Assembly: GCF_001536285.1 (NCBI RefSeq)
Contig: NZ_FAOZ01000012.1
Coordinates: forward strand, 124,001 to 188,000
Reading direction: 5' to 3'
Source of the DNA: Parafrankia irregularis
GTDB lineage: Bacteria > Actinomycetota > Actinomycetes > Frankiales > Frankiaceae
DNA: 64,000 nucleotides
Under the pieces are notes generated by a model. It made no database searches, was not told the DNA's origin, and worked only from the letters and a program-made list of their open reading frames with translations. The position numbers were made by a program, and so were the translations under genes. Of the stretch, positions 20,821 through 39,058 are shown in pieces (positions within the stretch are counted from its first letter, which is position 1; the number at the start of each line of letters is the position of its first letter).

Positions 20821-21411
20821 TCGCGGCCGACGGCCGGAGCATCGGCCCGCGCATGGGCCGGTCGCCCGAAGCACCGACAGATCGATGTGACAACTGCCAC
20901 AGGAACCTGTCACGCACGACGAGGAACCGAAAGCAGCGCAATCACACGCCGTTAGATTCCTCATCGGCCCGGGCCGCGCGGGGCATTCAACAAAAGAGCG
21001 GCAAGCCGTCGTCAGGGCCTTGCCACGGGACCATGCGAGGCTCGGCCCGGTAGAAACGGACGCTACGCTCAGTACTTTCTTCCGCGACCCGATGAGCATG
21101 CGTCGCGAACGCCGGGAACAAATACCTTGTCCCGAGAGGACAACACCGGCTTGCGCATCCGCATCGTTCGCGGCTATCTTCCCGGAAGATCTTGTCCAGC
21201 CGGAGATGGCGACCTTCGGCCAGTCCTCCGAATGATTACCCGGGGAAACCCGGGCTCGTCGCCTGCGCGGGTAATGACGGTTCCCAAGCCTGCGACCTCG
21301 GTTCACCGGATTCCTCGGAATCCTCCACCGGTCCAGCCTGCCCGCATCCGGGCACCGACCAGGAATATCGACGCCATCTTGCCGAATCATTCGAGGAAGA
21401 AGAGGCGGTCC
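20821..21411. other. 590-bp gene-free region with hairpins before the SGNH hydrolase
   Basis: No convincing gene. It contains GTGACA-N15-TGTCAC (20887-20913) and a perfect hairpin CCCGGG-GAAA-CCCGGG at 21239-21254. The base composition is less G+C-rich than its surroundings, which suggests a promoter and a long 5' leader for the gene at 21412. Confidence 0.4.
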
Positions 21412-23193: not shown

Positions 23194-23367
23194 GCGAACT
23201 CCCGGAACTCATCGCGGGTGCCAACGCCACGCCCGGCAGGCCCTCGACGGCATAACTGGAGCCTCGCACCACAGATCCGCATATTCTTTGTAGGCAGCCG
23301 TCGAGCTCCCTCGAGCACGTCGGGTATGTCTCCGGGCCCCTTGACTCGTGGGAGGGAGCACGTCCGG

Positions 23368-26718: not shown

Positions 26719-29507
26719 CGGCGTTCGCCCTCATCATCTCGATCGTGACGGTCGGATGGGCCGGCGAGGGCCGCGATCGCGGCCTGCCCGAGCGCGAGCC
26801 CGCCATCGCCGGGTGGAACGATTCGGTGGGTCAGCACCTCGAAGCCGGCCGCGACCAGCCGGGAGCGGCAGGCCCGCACCAGGACGACGTTCGCGAACAC
26901 GCCGCCGGTCAGCCCGACCACGCCGACACCACGCAGGTCACGGGCCGCACGGGCCACCGTCACCACCGCCTCGGCGACAGCCAGGTGAAACGCCTGCGCC
27001 AGCACCGGCATCGCGACCCCGGCGCGTATCCCCTCGACCAGGCCGGAGATCAGCGGCGCGGGGTCGAGCACACCCCCGCCGGGCCTGCGGTCGAACCCGA
27101 ACGTGAGCGCAGACGCCAGCCCCTCGACGTCAGCCAGCCCCTCGACGTCTGCCAGATCGGCCGCGGCTTCCAGCTCGGTGGCGGCCTGCGCCTCGAAGGT
27201 GCTGCGCTGCCGCACACCGAGCAGCGCGGCCACCGCGTCGAACAGCCGGCCCATGCTGCTGCACGGCACGCAGGACACGCCGCGGTCCAGGATCGTCCGC
27301 AGCACCGTCAACGCGGCCGGAGGCACGGCCCGCACCGGCGGAAGATCGTCGGACCAGGGCAGCCCGGCGGCCGCGAGATGCGCGAGGGCGCAGCGGTACG
27401 GCTCGCGGGCGGCCGCGTCGCCGCCCGGCAGCGGCACCGGGCGCAGGTACGCGAACCGTTCGACGCTGGTGAGATCGGCCCCGACCAGCAGCGCCTCACC
27501 ACCCCAGATGGTCCCGTCGGACCCGAACCCGGTGCCGTCGAAAGCCATCCCGAGGACCGGTCCGGCAACCGGATCGCCGGCCCCGCCGGGAGCACCGGAC
27601 CCGCCGGGAGCACCAGGCGTACCGGGACGTCCGAGCCGGCCGTGCTCGGCGAGCAGCGCGGCGACGTGCGCGTGATGGTGCCCGACATCGTGGCTTCGGC
27701 TGGCACCGGTGGGTCGCCGGATCGCCCAGGCCCGGGTGAGATAGCCGGGATGACGGTCGGCGGCGAACGTGGCCGGCGCGACGTCGTACAGCCGCGTCAT
27801 CCGGGCGCAGGAATCCTCGAACGTGCGCAGCGCGTCGAGCCCGGCGATGTCCCCGAGGTGCTGCGAGACGATCGCGTGCCGTCCGGTGGTGAGACACACC
27901 GTGGCCTTTCCGTCGCCGCCCACCGCCAGCACGGAGCCGACGGGACGTCCGAGGTCGACCGCCTGCGGGGCGTAGCCACGGGAACGGCGCACCGGCAGCA
28001 CCCGTTCGCCGTCGAAGCGCTCGACCGAGTCGTCGCACGGCGCGACGATCGGCCGGTCATGGGCCAGGAATGCGTCCGCGAGGCCACGCAGCCGGGCGCG
28101 GGCCTCGTCGTCCGCGATGCAGATCGGCTCGCCGGAGCGGTTGCCGCTGGTCATCACCAGTGCCTGGGGTGGGTCCGCGTCCACACCGGGCACCGGGGCG
28201 AACAGAAGATGATGCAGCGGCGTGTACGCCAGGAGCAGTCCTATGAGAGGGCTACCGGGTGCCACCAGCTCCGAGACGGGCGCGGTGGTCTTCCGCCGGG
28301 CGAGGACGATCGGCGCGGCGGGCGAGGCCAGCAGCTCCCGCTCGGCCGCGGACAGGTCGGCGAGCCTGGCAGCGCTCGCCAGGTCCGCCACCATGACCGC
28401 CAGCGGCTTGTCCGGACGTCCCTTACGTGCGCGCAGCAGCGCGACGGCGTCGCTGGCACCTGCGTCGCAGGCGAGGTGATAGCCGCCGACGCCCTTGACC
28501 GCCACGATCTCACCCGCCACCAGCGCTCGCTGCGCCGCCGCGAGCGCGACATCCGCGACGTCCGACAGCCTCCGCGCGGACGCGGCCTCGGGGCCGCAGG
28601 CTCGGTCGCCTTCGCCGTCGCGCTCGCCGTCACCGCCGCGCTCGCCGTCGCGCTCGCCGTCGCGGTCGCCGCCCCGCTCGCCGTCGCGGTCGCCGTCGGC
28701 CTGGCTTGTGCCCGGGTCGGTGGCTCGTTCGAACCACAGCGTCGGCCCGCAGGACGGGCAGCAGATGGGTTCGGCGTGGAAGCGCCGGTCCGCCGGGTCG
28801 CCGTACTCGCGCGCGCACTCTGGACACATCGGGAACCGGGCCATCGTGGTCGACGCGCGGTCATACGGCAGGCTCTCGATGATCGTGAAGCGGGGACCGC
28901 AGTTCGTGCAGGTGATGAACGGGTGCCGGTGGCGGCGGTCCGCGGGGTCGGCCAGCTCGCGCAGGCAGTCGTCACACACGGCCGTGTCCGGCGGGACCAT
29001 GGTGCGCGGGCCGGGTGCCGGTGCGCTGGCGAGAATGCGGAAGCCCGCGGCCGCGACCGCCCCGGCAGCGCGCGCACCGCCCAGGTTCGCGCCGCCCGCG
29101 GCCGCACCGTTCGCGCCCGCACCGTTCGCGTCCGCATGGTTCGCGCCCGCGCCGTTCGCGTTCAGGGCCGCGTCCGTGTTCCCGGCGCGCGCGATCTCGG
29201 TGACGGTGATCCGCTGCACCCGCGCAAGCGGTGGGGGCGGGGCGATGAGCCGCCGCCGGAACTCGGCGACGGCGCGGGCCGCCCCCTCCACCTCGACGAC
29301 GACCGCACCCGCGTCGTTGCGGACGAAGCCCGCCAGCCCCAGTCCAACCGCGAGCCGGTAGACATGGGGCCGGAACCCGACTCCCTGCACGACACCTTCG
29401 GCGGTCACCCGCCACCGAACCCGGCCCGCGCTGCCGCCGGGCTGCGCCGCCCCGCCGTCCGCGAACGTTGTCGTCGCGCCGTCGTCGGGCGAGGGGTGAG
29501 ACGTCAA
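26715..29507 (-). CDS. hypF: HypF, carbamoyltransferase for hydrogenase maturation
   Basis: HypF makes carbamoyl-adenylate from carbamoyl phosphate and ATP and passes the carbamoyl group to HypE. Domains in order: acylphosphatase ([18 protein letters not shown], about residues 38-55), two zinc fingers (CDDC...CTNC and CPEC...CPSC, about 180-260), a YrdC/Sua5-like domain ([13 protein letters not shown]) and the C-terminal Kae1-like domain with [28 protein letters not shown] and [12 protein letters not shown]. At 930 residues it is well above the usual 750 or so because of two low-complexity inserts: Asn/Gly/Ala-rich before the zinc fingers and a (DGERGGDR)-like stretch after them. The ATG overlaps the upstream TPR gene by 4 nt. 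Confidence 0.96.
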
Positions 29508-31202: not shown

Positions 31203-32033
31203 TCACGCCGGCAGCCGGGGGCGGAAGGGGCATTCGTGCGGTGTGCCGTTGACGACGAGTGCCGTCGACGGCGGTACCTCCTGCCACACCCCGGGTAGCT
31301 CGTCCAGGGGTTCCGACAGGATGGCGCGCGCGTTGTGCGGCACCCGGCTCAGGCGGCCGTCCTCGGGGTAGAGCATCCGGAGCGCGTCGACGTCCTCGTT
31401 CATGTAGAGGGTGTTGGCGACCGGCCCGCTCGCATACCTGACCGCGAACATCCTCTGGCCGTCGGTCAGCCCGACCGTCATCTGCAGCGGTTCGGCGATG
31501 CCCGCCGCAGCACCGACGCTCTCGACGAAACCGGCCATCCTCTCCAGCCCGCCCAGGGGATCACCCTCGAGCCCGAACGTGAGCGCGAGGTGGAACATCA
31601 CCTCCGAGTCGGTCGAGCCCTTGATGTTGGCGAACAGGTCCGCCCGGACCGCCATCAGCAGCTCGCGCCGGAGAGAATCGAAGCCCTCGATATGGCCATT
31701 GTGCACGAACAGCCATCGCCGGTAGCGAAACGGATGGGAGTTCGTCTTCTGGGCAGGTGTTCCAGTGCTCGCTCGAACGTGCGCGAGAAACATTGGCGAG
31801 CAGATCTCGTCGGCGAGTTCCCGAAGATTCTCGTCCCCCCAGGCAGGCGAATCGCTACGGAATACGGCCGGACACTCGCGCCTCCCATACCAGCCGATAC
31901 CCGTCCCGTCGCCGTTCGGTTCGTACAGGCCCGCTCCATGCCTGATGCTCTGGGCTATCAGCGAACGTTTCGGCTCATAGAGCAGGACACGTGGGGAGAT
32001 CGGCGCACCGGAGTACCCCAGCCATCGGCACAT
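31203..32033 (-). CDS. Class II glutamine amidotransferase (YafJ-like)
   Basis: A 276-residue Ntn-type amidotransferase. It starts MCRWLGYSG, so Met removal would expose Cys as the N-terminal nucleophile. Other class II glutaminase features are the HVRASTG segment, the SHPFRYRRWLFVHNGHIEGF motif with Asn-Gly of the oxyanion site, and STDSEVMFHLAL. Glutamine is hydrolysed to glutamate and ammonia; stand-alone members of this type include the EgtC-like gamma-glutamyl hydrolases. No ergothioneine genes are nearby, so that role is not supported. The ATG at 32033 has GAGGAGGGTG just upstream. Confidence 0.9.
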   Translation of the reverse strand: MCRWLGYSGAPISPRVLLYEPKRSLIAQSIRHGAGLYEPNGDGTGIGWYGRRECPAVFRSDSPAWGDENLRELADEICSPMFLAHVRASTGTPAQKTNSHPFRYRRWLFVHNGHIEGFDSLRRELLMAVRADLFANIKGSTDSEVMFHLALTFGLEGDPLGGLERMAGFVESVGAAAGIAEPLQMTVGLTDGQRMFAVRYASGPVANTLYMNEDVDALRMLYPEDGRLSRVPHNARAILSEPLDELPGVWQEVPPSTALVVNGTPHECPFRPRLPA

Positions 32034-32240
32034 ATCACCCTCCTCAGGCCACCGAGACGAAGGTGCCCAGGTGCCACCTCGGCAACCACCGACCCAACAC
32101 AGCCGGGCGAACGCCCAGCCAAGGGCCTGCTCGTCATTTTTCGGCTATCGGGCTGTTGAATCTTCGGGTTGGCGGGGTATCTACCGGCCCAGGCCCTTCA
32201 CCCCGCGGTGACGGTCCGCGAGCCGGAGGAGGAACCACCC

Positions 32241-32702: not shown

Positions 32703-33773
32703 ATGGCGGATGCGAGAGCCGAGCGAATCAGGAATTTCATCAAACCGCTGCGTGTCGAACCGGGAACCACGGTGACCCTGCCCTCGGACTTCGATCCGCG
32801 GTACAAAGCACACCTTCTGAAGAAGAAGGATGGCGTAGCGATGCTACGCACCGGGATCGAGCTGCTGGCCGACTACCAACGGCGCCTGGCCGCACAGGAC
32901 ACCTACGGGGTGCTCGTCTGCCTCCAGGCGCTGGATGCGGGCGGAAAGGACGGCATAATTCGGCATGTGATGAGCGGGGTCAATCCGCAGGGCGTGCAGG
33001 TGAGCAGCTTCAAGGTGCCGTCGGCGGAGGAGCTCGACCATGACTATCTGTGGCGCTACGCCTGCCGGTTGCCAGCCCGCGGGAACATCGGAATATTCAA
33101 TCGTTCACACTACGAGGAGGTCCTCGTAGTCCGTGTACATCCGGAAAACCTCGATCGGCAGAAGCTCCCGGCCGAGGCGAAGAGAAAAGGCGTCTGGAAC
33201 TGACGGTATCACGAGATCAACGAATGGGAGCGCCACCTGACCGACAACGGCTTCCGACTGGTCAAGCTGTTCCTCAACATCTCCCGGGAGGAGCAACGGG
33301 CCCGGTTCCTCAAACGGATCGACGTGCCGGAGCACAACTGGAAGTTCTCGGCTGCCGACGTGCGCGAGCGCGAGCACTGGGACGAGTACCAGCACGCGTT
33401 CTCGAAGATGCTGTCGGCCACCAGCACACGGTGGGCACCCTGGTATGTCATACCTGCCGACCGGAAGTGGTTCGCCCGGATCTGCGCCGGTGCGGTTCTC
33501 GCGCACACCCTGATCGACATCGACCCGCGGTATCCCACGGTGAGCGCCGAGGAGCGACGCGCACTGGGAGCGGTGGCACGGCGGCTTGAGAGCGAGGCCC
33601 CCGAGGGCGCCCCGGCCGACCCGTACGCCATGTCGGTCGCCAGCGCCGAGACCGGCCACGGAAAGCTGAAGAAGGCGCAGAAAGGCAAAAGGGTCGGGAA
33701 GACCGAGAAGGCGGGAACGCGGCGCCGATTTCGATCGGAGACGGAACGGCATGAGCGTGCACAGCGAGGTTGA
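32703..33773 (+). pseudogene. Polyphosphate kinase 2 (PPK2) family, broken by an in-frame TGA
   Basis: PPK2 enzymes transfer phosphate between polyphosphate and nucleotides. From the ATG at 32703 the frame encodes the family N terminus, a Walker A LQALDAGGKDGIIRHV (about residues 79-94) and GIFNRSHYEEVLVVRVHPE, then meets TGA at 33201-33203 (codon 167). Directly after it the same frame goes on with RYHEINEWERHLTDNGFRLV, KLFLNISREEQRARFLKRID and WAPWYVIPADRKWF, the canonical PPK2 lid and C-terminal region. No base is gained or lost, so this is a single nonsense change, possibly from CGA or TGG. The 166-residue product would lack the lid. The reading frame runs 23 bp into the ATPase gene and ends in an Arg/Lys-rich tail. 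Confidence 0.85.
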
Positions 33774-36270
33774 TCGGAGCGCGGTCGGCACCGACAGCTG
33801 GTTCGCGCGCTCGACCGAGGAGGTCGCGACCGCCTTCCGGGTCGATCCGGCCGTTGGGCTGGCGGACGCACAGGTGGCCGAACTGCTGGCCACCGATGGC
33901 CCGAACGTGCTTCCGGAGGAGAAGCCCACGCCGGACTGGCGTCGTTTCCTGAGTCAGTACCGCAGCTACATGCAGCTGATTCTCATCGGCGCGGCCGCCG
34001 TTTCCGTCGGGGTTGCCGAGTGGAGCACCGCGGTGCTGCTCGCGCTGCTCACCGTCCTGAACGCCGTGGTGGGCCTGCGCCAGGAGGGCAAGGCCGAGAG
34101 CGCCATGAACGCGCTGCGGTCGATGCTGAAGGCGACGGCCCGCGTGCGGCGGGCCGGGTCCGAGGCCGAGATTCCGGCCGACCAGGTGGTGGTGGGCGAT
34201 GTCGTGATCCTCGCGGCGGGTGACGAGGTACCGGCCGACGGGCGCGTTGTCGCAGCGAGCGCCCTGCAGATCGACGAGTCTGCGCTGACCGGGGAGAGCA
34301 CCCCCGCCGCCAAGGACGCGGTCGTCCTGCGGGCCGGCCCGCTCGGCCCCGGCGAGATCCTCTCCCTCGGCGGCGTCGATCTCGCCAGGCGCAGCGCCAT
34401 CGTCAAGGATCTCCCGTCGGTCGAGACCCTGGGATTCGTCTCTGCGATCAACTCGGACAAGACCGGGACTCTGACCATGAACCAGATGACCGTGGTCGAG
34501 GTCGTGGAACCGACCGCCCGGTACACGGTCTCCGGTGCCGGCCGCGCTCTGCAGGGGCAGGTCCGGCACGCCGCCGGCGGATCCGCCGCCGTCGAGGAGG
34601 CGATCCTGCCCTATCTGGTCGCGAACGACGCGGCGCTGATGAACGGGGAGCCCGTCGGCGATCCCACCGAGTGCGCCCTGCTGGTGCTCGGTCACAAGGC
34701 CGGGCTCGATGTGGACATCACCCGCGAGCGGCTGCCCCGGCTCGCCACGCTGCCGTTCGACCCGGACTACAAGCTGATGGCGACGTTCCATTCGGCCGTC
34801 GACACCGCGGGGCGGTCCGTCGTCCGGTGTTTCGTGAAGGGTGCGGCGCCCGCGGTTCTGTCCCGGGTTGCGACGGCGCGGTCCGGCGGCGCAACGGTCT
34901 CCTGGGACGCCCACCTGCGCGAATGGGCCGAGGCTCACCTCGAGCGTATGGGAGGCGAGGGGAAGCGGGTGATGGCCGCCGCCACCCTGGATCTCGATCC
35001 GGCCGGCTTCCGGGCCGACGGCGACCTGCTCGCCTACGTCACGGGTCTTCACCTGACGAGCCTGGTCGGGATGGTCGACCCGCCGCGGCCGGAATCCGCG
35101 GAGGCGATCGCCGGTGCGCGCGACGCCCACATCCGGGTCCGGATGGTCACCGGCGACGACGTTGTCACCGGAGCCGCCATCGCCGCGCAGGTCGGTATCG
35201 ACGGTGCGGCCATTCTCGGCGCGGACTTCGCCGCGCTCCCGGAATCCGAGCGCCTGGCCGTCATCGACGACATCGGTGTCGTCGGACGGGTCGCCCCCGA
35301 GCACAAGGTGCTGCTCGCCGACACGTTGAAGAAGCGTGGTGACGTGGTGGCGATGACCGGAGACGGAGTCAACGACGCACCGGCCATCAAGGCCGCCGAC
35401 ATCGGGATCGCGATGGGTACCGGTACGGACGTCGCGAAGAACGCGAGCCGGATGATCCTGTCCGACGACAACTTCGCCACGATCGTGTCCGCGGTCGAGC
35501 GTGGCCGCAAGATCTACGACAACCTCGCCAAGTACATCCGCTTCGTTCTGATCCTCCTGGTCGTCTTCGTTCTGACCTTCCTGGGTGCCACTCTGTTCGA
35601 TATCGCCGCCGGCGAACCGTTCACCCCCGCCCAGGTGTTGTGGATCCACTTCCTCGTCAACGCGCCGTTCGGCTTCGCTCTCGGCTTCGACCGGGCAAGC
35701 CAGGGGCTCATGGGCAGGAGGCCACGCCCACGCGGTGAGTCACTGCTGACCACCAGGCTGATCGTCATGGTCGGCCTGGTCGGGCTGGTCATGACGGTCG
35801 GCCTGCTGGCGATGATCAAGATCGGCGAGACGCGTTTCGGGAGCGACTCGGTCGGAAACTCGATCGCCTTCACCTCGTTCGCGCTGTGCCTGATCGTCGG
35901 GGCGCTCGAATGCCGCGACGAGTCCGGCACCATCCTGACGACAGCCACATTCGACAGCAAACATATGAACTGGACAGTGCTGGGAGAGTTCGTGCTCGCG
36001 GTGTTCGTCACCCAGCTGGACGCCTTCCGAAGGCTGCTCGGCACCACCCAGCTCAGCCTCGACGAGTTCGCCTGGGCGCTTGTCCCCGCGATCGCACTCC
36101 TGATCCTGTGGGAGCTCGGGAAATGGGCGGTCAGGCGTTTCCTCGGTGCAGCCTCCGCAGCACGAACGCGAGATGCAGGCGCAGGCGGCCGTTCGGGTCG
36201 TGGACGGACCAGCCGAGAACCTGCTCCGCCTGGTGGAGACGTTCCTGCAAGGTCGAATGGTGCACGGTGA
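33751..36270 (+). CDS. P-type cation ATPase lacking the M3-M4 region, probably non-functional
   Basis: Related to P2/P3-type cation pumps. Present: N-terminal cation-ATPase segment, M1-M2 (about residues 73-105), TGES (about 180-183), phosphorylation site SDKTGTLT (Asp about 236), KGAAP of the N domain, TGDGVNDAP hinge, and M5-M10. TGES and DKTG are only about 55 residues apart, against roughly 165 in normal pumps; the second half of the A domain and helices M3-M4 with the PEGLP-type ion site are missing, and the junction is in frame. The C terminus runs about 45 residues past the usual end into a basic low-complexity tail antisense to the PucR gene. The start at 33751 has GGAG upstream. 839 residues. 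Confidence 0.8.
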   Translation: MSVHSEVDRSAVGTDSWFARSTEEVATAFRVDPAVGLADAQVAELLATDGPNVLPEEKPTPDWRRFLSQYRSYMQLILIGAAAVSVGVAEWSTAVLLALLTVLNAVVGLRQEGKAESAMNALRSMLKATARVRRAGSEAEIPADQVVVGDVVILAAGDEVPADGRVVAASALQIDESALTGESTPAAKDAVVLRAGPLGPGEILSLGGVDLARRSAIVKDLPSVETLGFVSAINSDKTGTLTMNQMTVVEVVEPTARYTVSGAGRALQGQVRHAAGGSAAVEEAILPYLVANDAALMNGEPVGDPTECALLVLGHKAGLDVDITRERLPRLATLPFDPDYKLMATFHSAVDTAGRSVVRCFVKGAAPAVLSRVATARSGGATVSWDAHLREWAEAHLERMGGEGKRVMAAATLDLDPAGFRADGDLLAYVTGLHLTSLVGMVDPPRPESAEAIAGARDAHIRVRMVTGDDVVTGAAIAAQVGIDGAAILGADFAALPESERLAVIDDIGVVGRVAPEHKVLLADTLKKRGDVVAMTGDGVNDAPAIKAADIGIAMGTGTDVAKNASRMILSDDNFATIVSAVERGRKIYDNLAKYIRFVLILLVVFVLTFLGATLFDIAAGEPFTPAQVLWIHFLVNAPFGFALGFDRASQGLMGRRPRPRGESLLTTRLIVMVGLVGLVMTVGLLAMIKIGETRFGSDSVGNSIAFTSFALCLIVGALECRDESGTILTTATFDSKHMNWTVLGEFVLAVFVTQLDAFRRLLGTTQLSLDEFAWALVPAIALLILWELGKWAVRRFLGAASAARTRDAGAGGRSGRGRTSREPAPPGGDVPARSNGAR

Positions 36271-37251: not shown

Positions 37252-38262
37252 CTACGGCGCGAGAAGGCGGCGAAGCCAGTTCGTCCGGGCGGCCTTCGCG
37301 GCCTGCGAGACCGGAGCCTGCGGTGCCATCAGGTCGAAGCCGTGGAAGCCGCCGGGCCACACATGCAGCTCGGCCGCGCCGCCCGCCTGCCAGATCCGGC
37401 TGGCGTAGGTCACGTCCTCGTCCCGGAAGGTCTCCGCCGAGCCGACGTCGATGAAGGCCGGAGGCAGGCCGGAGAGGTCACCGGCACGGGCCGGGGCGGC
37501 GTACGGCGAGACGTCGGGGCCACCGCGCTGATCGCCGAGCAGTGCCGTCCAGCCGGTCTCGTTCGACGCGCGGTCCCAGACACCACGCCCGGCCATCTGC
37601 CAGGCCGACGGGGTGTCGTTGCGGTCGTCGAGCATCGGGCACAGCAGCATCTGCCCGGCCAGGGCCGGGCCACCGCGGTCGCGGGCCATCAGTGCCACGG
37701 CCGCGGCCAGGCCGCCGCCCGCGCTGGTGCCCGCCACGATGGTTCGGCCCGGGGCGACACCGAACTCGGCCAGCCGGTCCGCCGTCCAGAGCAGGCCGGC
37801 GTAACAGTCGTCGACAGGGGTCGGATGCGGGTTCTCCGGCGCGAGCCGGTAGTCCGGCGAAACGACCACCAGGCCCAGCTCCTCGGCCCACTCAAGCGCC
37901 TCGGAGACACCGGTGCGCGCGTCACCGATGACCATCCCGCCGCCGTGCATGAAGTAGACGGCCGCCGCCGGGGTTTTGGTCGACGTCGGCCGGCACACGA
38001 CCAGCGGCAGCTCGAACCCACCCGGACCGCCCAGCCCGACCGGTAACGAGACCGTCTCCACGGTGAACGCGCCGCCGCGGGCGAGCTGCTCATCCGAGAC
38101 GACGATGCCCGCCATCCGCTCGCGAAGCTCCCGGATCACTTCCAGCGTCATCGGCTGCGGCAGAAGCGCCCCGAACATCTCGAGGGCCGCCGCCAGCTCG
38201 ACGTCGAAAGGCGGTGGTGGACCGACCCGCACGTCACCGGTATCCACATCGCTCACAGCCAT
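37252..38262 (-). CDS. Alpha/beta hydrolase of the hormone-sensitive lipase family (esterase)
   Basis: A 336-residue esterase with the HSL-family HGGGM oxyanion motif (about residues 116-120), nucleophile elbow GTSAGGG (Ser about 190), the Asp in FIDVGSAETFRDED and the His in WPGGFHGFD. It should hydrolyse short- or medium-chain esters in the cytoplasm. The ATG at 38262 has GGGAG six bases upstream; an upstream in-frame start at 38454 would add a tail antisense to low-complexity sequence. Followed on the same strand by the PucR regulator. Confidence 0.92.
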   Translation of the reverse strand: MAVSDVDTGDVRVGPPPPFDVELAAALEMFGALLPQPMTLEVIRELRERMAGIVVSDEQLARGGAFTVETVSLPVGLGGPGGFELPLVVCRPTSTKTPAAAVYFMHGGGMVIGDARTGVSEALEWAEELGLVVVSPDYRLAPENPHPTPVDDCYAGLLWTADRLAEFGVAPGRTIVAGTSAGGGLAAAVALMARDRGGPALAGQMLLCPMLDDRNDTPSAWQMAGRGVWDRASNETGWTALLGDQRGGPDVSPYAAPARAGDLSGLPPAFIDVGSAETFRDEDVTYASRIWQAGGAAELHVWPGGFHGFDLMAPQAPVSQAAKAARTNWLRRLLAP

Positions 38263-38410
38263 TCTCGCTCCCGCAGGTTCCAGCTCGGCCGACATCCCTG
38301 ATGCTGGCCTGCTGCGCGCGATCACGAAAGATGCGAGACGGCGGGAATCGCCCGCCAGCCGGCGGGCGATTCCCGCTCTTCGAACCCGGCTACCCAACAA
38401 TCCGAAGGGA

Positions 38411-39058
38411 TCACCGCCGTCGCGGGCGCCTTCGGAGCCGCGCGCCGCCACCACGGCGGCGGGCCGCAGGTGTGACCGGCCTCGGCACCGCCGAAGAGAT
38501 CAAGATGATCCCGAGACCGCCGGCCAGCAGCGCGCCCACCGCCACCAGCAGGAGCGGGACCGTGCCGGTGAACGGCAGCCGACCCGTCGGTTCGGCCGGC
38601 GCGCCGCCCCTGTCCTCCGCACCAGCCTTGTCCTCCGCACCCGCCTTGTCCTCCGTACCAGCCGCGCCGACCGGGCCCGCCGCGCCGCCGGGACCCACTG
38701 ACCCGGCCGCCGCGCCGACGCCGCCGATCACGGTGGGACCGGCTGGTCGCGGACCATGGTTGCCGGAGCCGGAGCCGCCGGTCTCACCCCAACCCGCACC
38801 GCCGGATCCGCCACCACCGACCCCGTACCCGCCGGTGTGGTCGCCGCCGCCGGGACCGCCACCGACGACGAGTGTGAATCCAACGGTTCCGCTGGCGACG
38901 ACAACCCGGTCGTTACCGAACGGCCGACCGGCGGCGGCGTCGGCCGCGCATACCGAGACAGTGGTGGGCACGAGCAGCGAGACAACGAAAAGAACCCCGC
39001 GGACCGCGTTCACCGCGGCACCGTGAGGTCGCCTTCTGGGCCGGACTGGACCTGACAC
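38411..39058 (-). CDS. LPXTG-anchored Gly-rich surface protein
   Basis: A 215-residue secreted protein. A signal peptide (VRGVLFVVSLLVPTTVSVCA, about residues 15-35) is followed by a short VVVASGTVGFTLVVGG segment, then a long Gly/Pro/Ala-rich region. The C terminus has a complete sortase signal: LPFTG (about residue 160), a hydrophobic helix and an Arg-rich tail. It should be linked to peptidoglycan by a sortase, which is not encoded in the window. An 18-bp repeat encodes EDKAGA three times just before the sorting signal. The GTG at 39058 has GGGGAG upstream and is preferred over a GTG at 39079. Function unknown, possibly a wall spacer or adhesin. Confidence 0.8.
   Translation of the reverse strand: MSGPVRPRRRPHGAAVNAVRGVLFVVSLLVPTTVSVCAADAAAGRPFGNDRVVVASGTVGFTLVVGGGPGGGDHTGGYGVGGGGSGGAGWGETGGSGSGNHGPRPAGPTVIGGVGAAAGSVGPGGAAGPVGAAGTEDKAGAEDKAGAEDRGGAPAEPTGRLPFTGTVPLLLVAVGALLAGGLGIILISSAVPRPVTPAARRRGGGARLRRRPRRR
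38609..38662 (-). repeat. 18-bp tandem repeat, three copies, in the LPXTG gene
   Basis: Three copies of an 18-bp unit containing TTGTCCTCCGCACC (+ strand) encode EDKAGA in frame immediately before the sorting signal; the third copy has one base change. Confidence 0.85.

Follow-up and report, generated by a model that had tools for sequence, protein, structure and literature searches.

A P-type ATPase gene of Parafrankia irregularis with an in-frame loss of 104 codons beside an interrupted polyphosphate kinase 2 gene

Among solved structures, the nearest counterpart by sequence of the P-type ATPase described here is the Listeria Ca2+-ATPase lmo0841 (6zhf, 9euq), with 6zhf at the top of the matches listed. 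When the predicted model was searched by fold, SPCA1 (7yai) came first and the Listeria pump (6zhh) 32nd among the matches listed, and Foldseek grouped the model with SPCA1, SERCA and Na,K-ATPase. The Listeria Ca2+-ATPase, SPCA1 and SERCA possess ten helices and a glutamic acid in M4, whereas the ATPase studied here is predicted to have neither. It is encoded in a stretch of 64,000 nucleotides of the P. irregularis genome (contig NZ_FAOZ01000012.1, positions 124,001 to 188,000), which is called the window. Homologues with 64-95% identity over the retained parts were found in a genome of the same genus (G004), in genome G033, in Streptomyces rimosus (L037) and in S. fumigatiscleroticus (L038). 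All four are full-length, while the window gene is 104 codons shorter and is without M3, M4 and the closing part of the A domain. The gene of polyphosphate kinase 2 (PPK2) adjoins the ATPase gene in G004, G033 and S. rimosus, and was not found at the S. fumigatiscleroticus locus. The intact relatives also differ from the Ca2+ pumps, as they have neither the asparagine/glutamate of M5 nor the aspartate of M6 at what we take to be the ligand positions of these pumps. Literature titles and abstract openings held nothing on point.

The ATPase ORF (33751-36270, forward strand) encodes 839 amino acids and contains TGES, DKTGT, KGA and TGDGVND motifs. The P domain motifs are located at residues 236-240 (DKTGT), 467-469 (TGD) and 536-542 (TGDGVND). 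The protein scored 235.7 bits with TIGR01494 (P-type ATPase, HAD-IC superfamily; cut-off 62.3), and Pfam matched the P-type N-terminal, E1-E2, hydrolase and C-terminal cation-ATPase domains. The ORF is a type-II-like P-type ATPase. The scores with the Ca ATPase equivalog models TIGR01522 (PMR1-type, 434.5 vs cut-off 798.3) and TIGR01116 (SERCA-type, 389.9 vs cut-off 703.4) were below cut-off, and the full-length G004 protein fails too (515.9 and 483.5, respectively); in fact, the full-length G004 and S. rimosus proteins were below the cut-off of every equivalog model listed. The last 140 bases of the ORF (36131-36270) overlap with a convergent ORF of a PucR-type regulator, and the same overlap is present in G004. 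No Rfam family was detected at gathering scores across the window.

The first residue of TGES is 180 and that of DKTG is 236, giving a spacing of 56. An earlier note made from the DNA letters had put this spacing at about 55 in place of about 165, which is borne out by a survey of 167 loci. A TGE..DKTG pair was found in 148 loci and none in 19, and in 130 of the 132 distinct pairs the spacing was 147-179. The two exceptions are the window (56) and locus L069 (115). L069 was considered as a second short member and rejected, as its value of 115 comes from pairing with a second, downstream TGE and the spacing from its first TGE is 160.

The origin of the short spacing became clear from the intact orthologue of G004 (L027), which is a single open frame of 1012 codons. 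In the DNA alignment, exactly 312 bp (104 codons) of G004 are absent between window positions 34356 and 34357, so that the deletion is in frame as the earlier note had claimed. The flanking DNA is 94.6% identical to G004 on the left and 95.7% on the right. The retained parts correspond to residues 1-202 (33751-34356, forward strand), covering the N-terminus, M1, M2 and the first part of the A domain including TGES, and residues 203-839 (34357-36270, forward strand), covering the stalk, the P and N domains and M5-M10. They show 92.6% identity over 202 amino acids and 95.4% over 637 amino acids with the G004 protein, and apart from the 312-bp gap the reading frame is undamaged. The proposed alignment with full-length homologues thus located the junction, and the aligned relatives keep the segment. 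It is also kept in the outgroups G033, two Streptomyces and G060, which places the loss in the lineage of the window.

The missing 104 residues extend from shortly past TGES up to the residue preceding ILSLGG. They contain the last strands of the A domain, M3, and M4 with a PEALP motif, the limits of these elements being placed as in P-type ATPases generally. The earlier claim that M3, M4 and the ion site were lost together holds for the orthologous segment. Its statement that half of the A domain is missing was right about the loss and overstated its extent, which is nearer to the last third of the cytoplasmic loop (about 38-40 residues by manual count). In agreement, PF00122 (E1-E2_ATPase) matched profile positions 2-65 of 181 in the window and 2-181 in the G004 orthologue. 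In an alignment of 37 relatives hand-chosen from 80 loci, several columns invariant in all 37 fall in the deleted segment, namely G217, G233, P248, L249, P298, E299 and L301 (L037 numbering). The PEGLP/PEALP ion site in M4, characteristic of type II transporters, is thus lacking from the window protein, since it lies inside the deleted segment.

Only 1 bp is common to both ends of the deletion. In G004 the hexamer GCAGAC is present at both segment ends, with copies 306 bp apart. Slippage between these copies alone would remove 306 bp, so the loss would require either a single 312-bp joining event or slippage followed by a further 6-bp loss. Either route would remove M3, M4 with its ion-binding glutamic acid and the last part of the A domain. 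A loss that is divisible by three and takes helices in an even number keeps the reading frame and leaves the rest of the protein with its topology unchanged. The same alignment bears on the possibility that the true gene is full-length and the gap was produced during sequencing or assembly. The genome is a draft of 82 contigs, which leaves some room for such an artefact, but the shared base and the 6-bp repeat at the ends were judged too short for an assembly collapse and no close copy of the segment was found on another contig; we consider an artefact unlikely. A search of the segment against the window's genome (G000) gave no match at E <= 0.001, and the idea that it had moved to another place in the genome was dropped. 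This search was run without a positive control and also missed the other P-type ATPases of the genome, and so it rules out only close copies. Within that scope it also argues against a split or programmed arrangement in which another gene or a recombination event supplies the segment, for which nothing was found in favour and which we regard as extremely improbable. A second close copy of the ATPase was not found in the genome either.

Nine close full-length relatives (G004 = L027, L117, L037, L038 and L168-L172) carry M4 with PEALP, while in M5 and M6 the sequences LLV(V/T/A)FVLTF and VNA(P/S/A)FGFALG replace the N/E and D ligands of Ca2+ pumps, respectively. As these ligands are missing, the M4 glutamic acid is the sole canonical acidic ligand in the nine relatives, and it is this residue which is lost in the window. 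In the more distant L173 (58%), L174 and L175 (46-47%) the M4 glutamic acid is also missing, with the segment otherwise present. Given what is known of the P-type cycle, a protein without the M4 ion site and with an incomplete A domain should be unable to complete it, and the window protein is thus predicted not to transport ions.

The structure models are consistent with this. The AlphaFold2 model of the window ATPase (38 sequences) has a mean pLDDT of 85.3. The P and N domains and the C-terminal helices are predicted with confidence, but residues 172-202 around TGES and the junction have pLDDT below 50. In the model of the full-length S. rimosus protein (37 sequences, mean 87.3), residues 171-200 reach 77, 71 and 79 as block means. 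By manual helix assignment, the window model contains M1, M2 and six C-terminal helices, and the full-length model contains two more, leaving the window protein short of ten helices. Although TGES is present, the window protein is predicted to lack a complete A domain, on account of the partial PF00122 match and the disorder of this region in the model. What is left of the protein may fold in its catalytic region, but it has neither a complete A domain nor the M4 site.

A protein of this kind could have been retained for a role other than transport, as a membrane-anchored P/N module for ATP binding or hydrolysis or as a regulator, and would then represent a new subtype. The in-frame nature of the loss, the conserved catalytic motifs of the P and N domains and the confident modelling of these domains speak for it, while the predicted disorder of the A-domain remnant speaks against it. 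The earlier note had favoured a relic and named a conserved family of the same short architecture under purifying selection as the sign of a new subtype. Such a family was sought with a junction-spanning query in 35 genomes of the order (E <= 1e-6) and 393 of the class (E <= 1e-8), with the genomes of the family included and one genome taken per species. Matches were obtained in 11 of the 35 and 110 of the 393 genomes. Among the matches listed from both sets, only the window itself was aligned from end to end. Except one left-side piece of G004, the other listed matches begin no earlier than query residue 16, with the junction at 28/29. Ten of them start at residue 16 or 17 and extend some residues over the junction, and the remaining listed ones start at residue 23 or later. 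The segment is present in the eight of these ten places which were aligned (G004, G033, G301, G103, G369 C1, G210, G129 and G060); the two other places are in G214 and G074. A conserved short subfamily was therefore rejected, having no other member among the matches listed or in the 132 distinct pairs. Since just one of the sampled genomes showed the short form, a retained non-transport function appears quite improbable, and the relic favoured by the earlier note agrees better with the genomes sampled.

The neighbouring PPK2 gene adds to the relic reading. It occupies 32703-33773 on the forward strand, the start at 32703 being taken from the G004 alignment, and is split by an in-frame TGA at 33201-33203, which is codon 178 of the ORF from 32670 and a sense codon in G004, L117 and L037. 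This is the only TGA in the frame, and none is found in G004. At the position where the G004 PPK2 ends, the window has a sense codon by G004 comparison (33714-33716, forward strand), as a result of which the PPK2 frame continues over the ATPase start (33714-33773). Moreover, the PExNWKF motif of PPK2 has a histidine in the window where G004 and all six other relatives have arginine or lysine. Both genes of the PPK2/ATPase module are thus damaged in the window, and the broken partner also weighs against a retained function of the ATPase. The window's genome contains two further uninterrupted PPK2 matches.

The linkage of the two genes is shared by most of the close intact relatives. PPK2 with at least 69% identity to the G004 protein is situated upstream of the related ATPase in G004 and in six of the 12 other loci tested (L117, L037, L168, L169, L171 and L172), and hence adjoins the gene in 7 of the 9 close full-length relatives, G004 counted. 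At two more loci, L170 and L173, the PPK2-like match upstream is distant (29-31%), and L038, L046, L174 and L175 have no PPK2 match there. The ATPase orthologue was present in two of the six genomes of the genus and, at an identity of at least 69%, in three of the 35 of the family, including those two. This linkage along with the scattered presence indicates a conserved but patchy module. Since the upstream PPK2 is also stopped, the two-gene module would be out of use in this strain. A candidate PPK2 remnant in G002 (C133) was rejected, as neither the window ORFs taken from 24-46 kb nor the PPK2 and ATPase of G004 matched that 15-kb stretch at E <= 1e-6.

Codon models gave the strongest argument in the other direction. 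With six sequences and 775 codons, the branch omega of the ATPase was 0.116 in the window and 0.097 in G004 (2dlnL 0.06), and omega = 1 was rejected on the window branch (2dlnL 10.5). The PPK2 omega was 0.158 against 0.115 in G004 over 330 codons, and neutrality was not rejected (1.50); the optimiser of these six-sequence fits was limited to 60 rounds. A three-taxon fit over 794 codons gave 0.125 for the window and 0.108 for G004, and the three-taxon profile over 775 codons was flat, with about 95% support for window omega values up to 0.35-0.40. Polarised amino-acid changes numbered 10 in the window and 9 in G004, with 25 unresolved, and among codons polarised with one outgroup, 2 of 19 were nonsynonymous in the window and 9 of 30 in G004, with 56 unresolved. 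No positive sign of relaxed selection on the window ATPase was seen in the branch fits, the profile or the polarised changes. The relic reading is therefore upheld by the deletion and the PPK2 stop and not by relaxed selection in the codon-model tests. The low omega is the main point against a settled relic, and leaves a recent deletion or a retained stump as explanations. The rejected neutrality fits a retained function, but the low omega is an average that takes in the period preceding the deletion. Read plainly, the values suggest that much the greater part of the window branch had elapsed when the lesions arose, and decay is not proven by them. It is in our view highly improbable that one deletion converted the pump into a membrane-anchored protein which binds ATP without transporting and is still kept, a P-type pseudo-transporter made in a single step.

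The window ORF very likely represents an accessory, PPK2-linked P-type ATPase in an allele that was inactivated recently, and a recent inactivation of the module, private to this strain among the genomes sampled, is the most likely explanation. Internal in-frame deletion is an ordinary way in which bacterial pseudogenes arise. The window ATPase shares with such pseudogenes the private loss, the patchy accessory gene and the broken neighbour, and differs from them in its intact frame and in showing no sign of relaxed selection as yet. As a relic it is ordinary, being another accessory transporter lost through a clean deletion. The case illustrates how a pump gene that has lost two helices in frame can remain annotatable and look catalytically complete, although its product should not be listed among transporters. 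It also draws attention to the clade of PPK2-linked P-type ATPases, whose intact members, without the usual M5 and M6 ligands, are more curious than the broken copy.

The surroundings of the pair vary between relatives. The G001 flank shares the PucR-type ORF and the ORF 37252-38454 in order (74% each), with one other ORF weakly matched (35%), and the 12 kb examined contain no ATPase/PPK2 pair. Upstream of the pair, about 335 bp in the region of ORFs 31203-32033 and 31785-32119 are present in the window and absent in G004, due to which the G004 ORF matches only residues 110-275 of the window ORF. The ORF 31203-32033 is presumably a class II glutamine amidotransferase, judging from its MCRWLGY start. 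Further upstream, G004 is longer than the window by about 1.3 kb, 0.9 kb and 0.13 kb at clean breaks at 20849-20855, 23221-23225 and 27108-27114, respectively.
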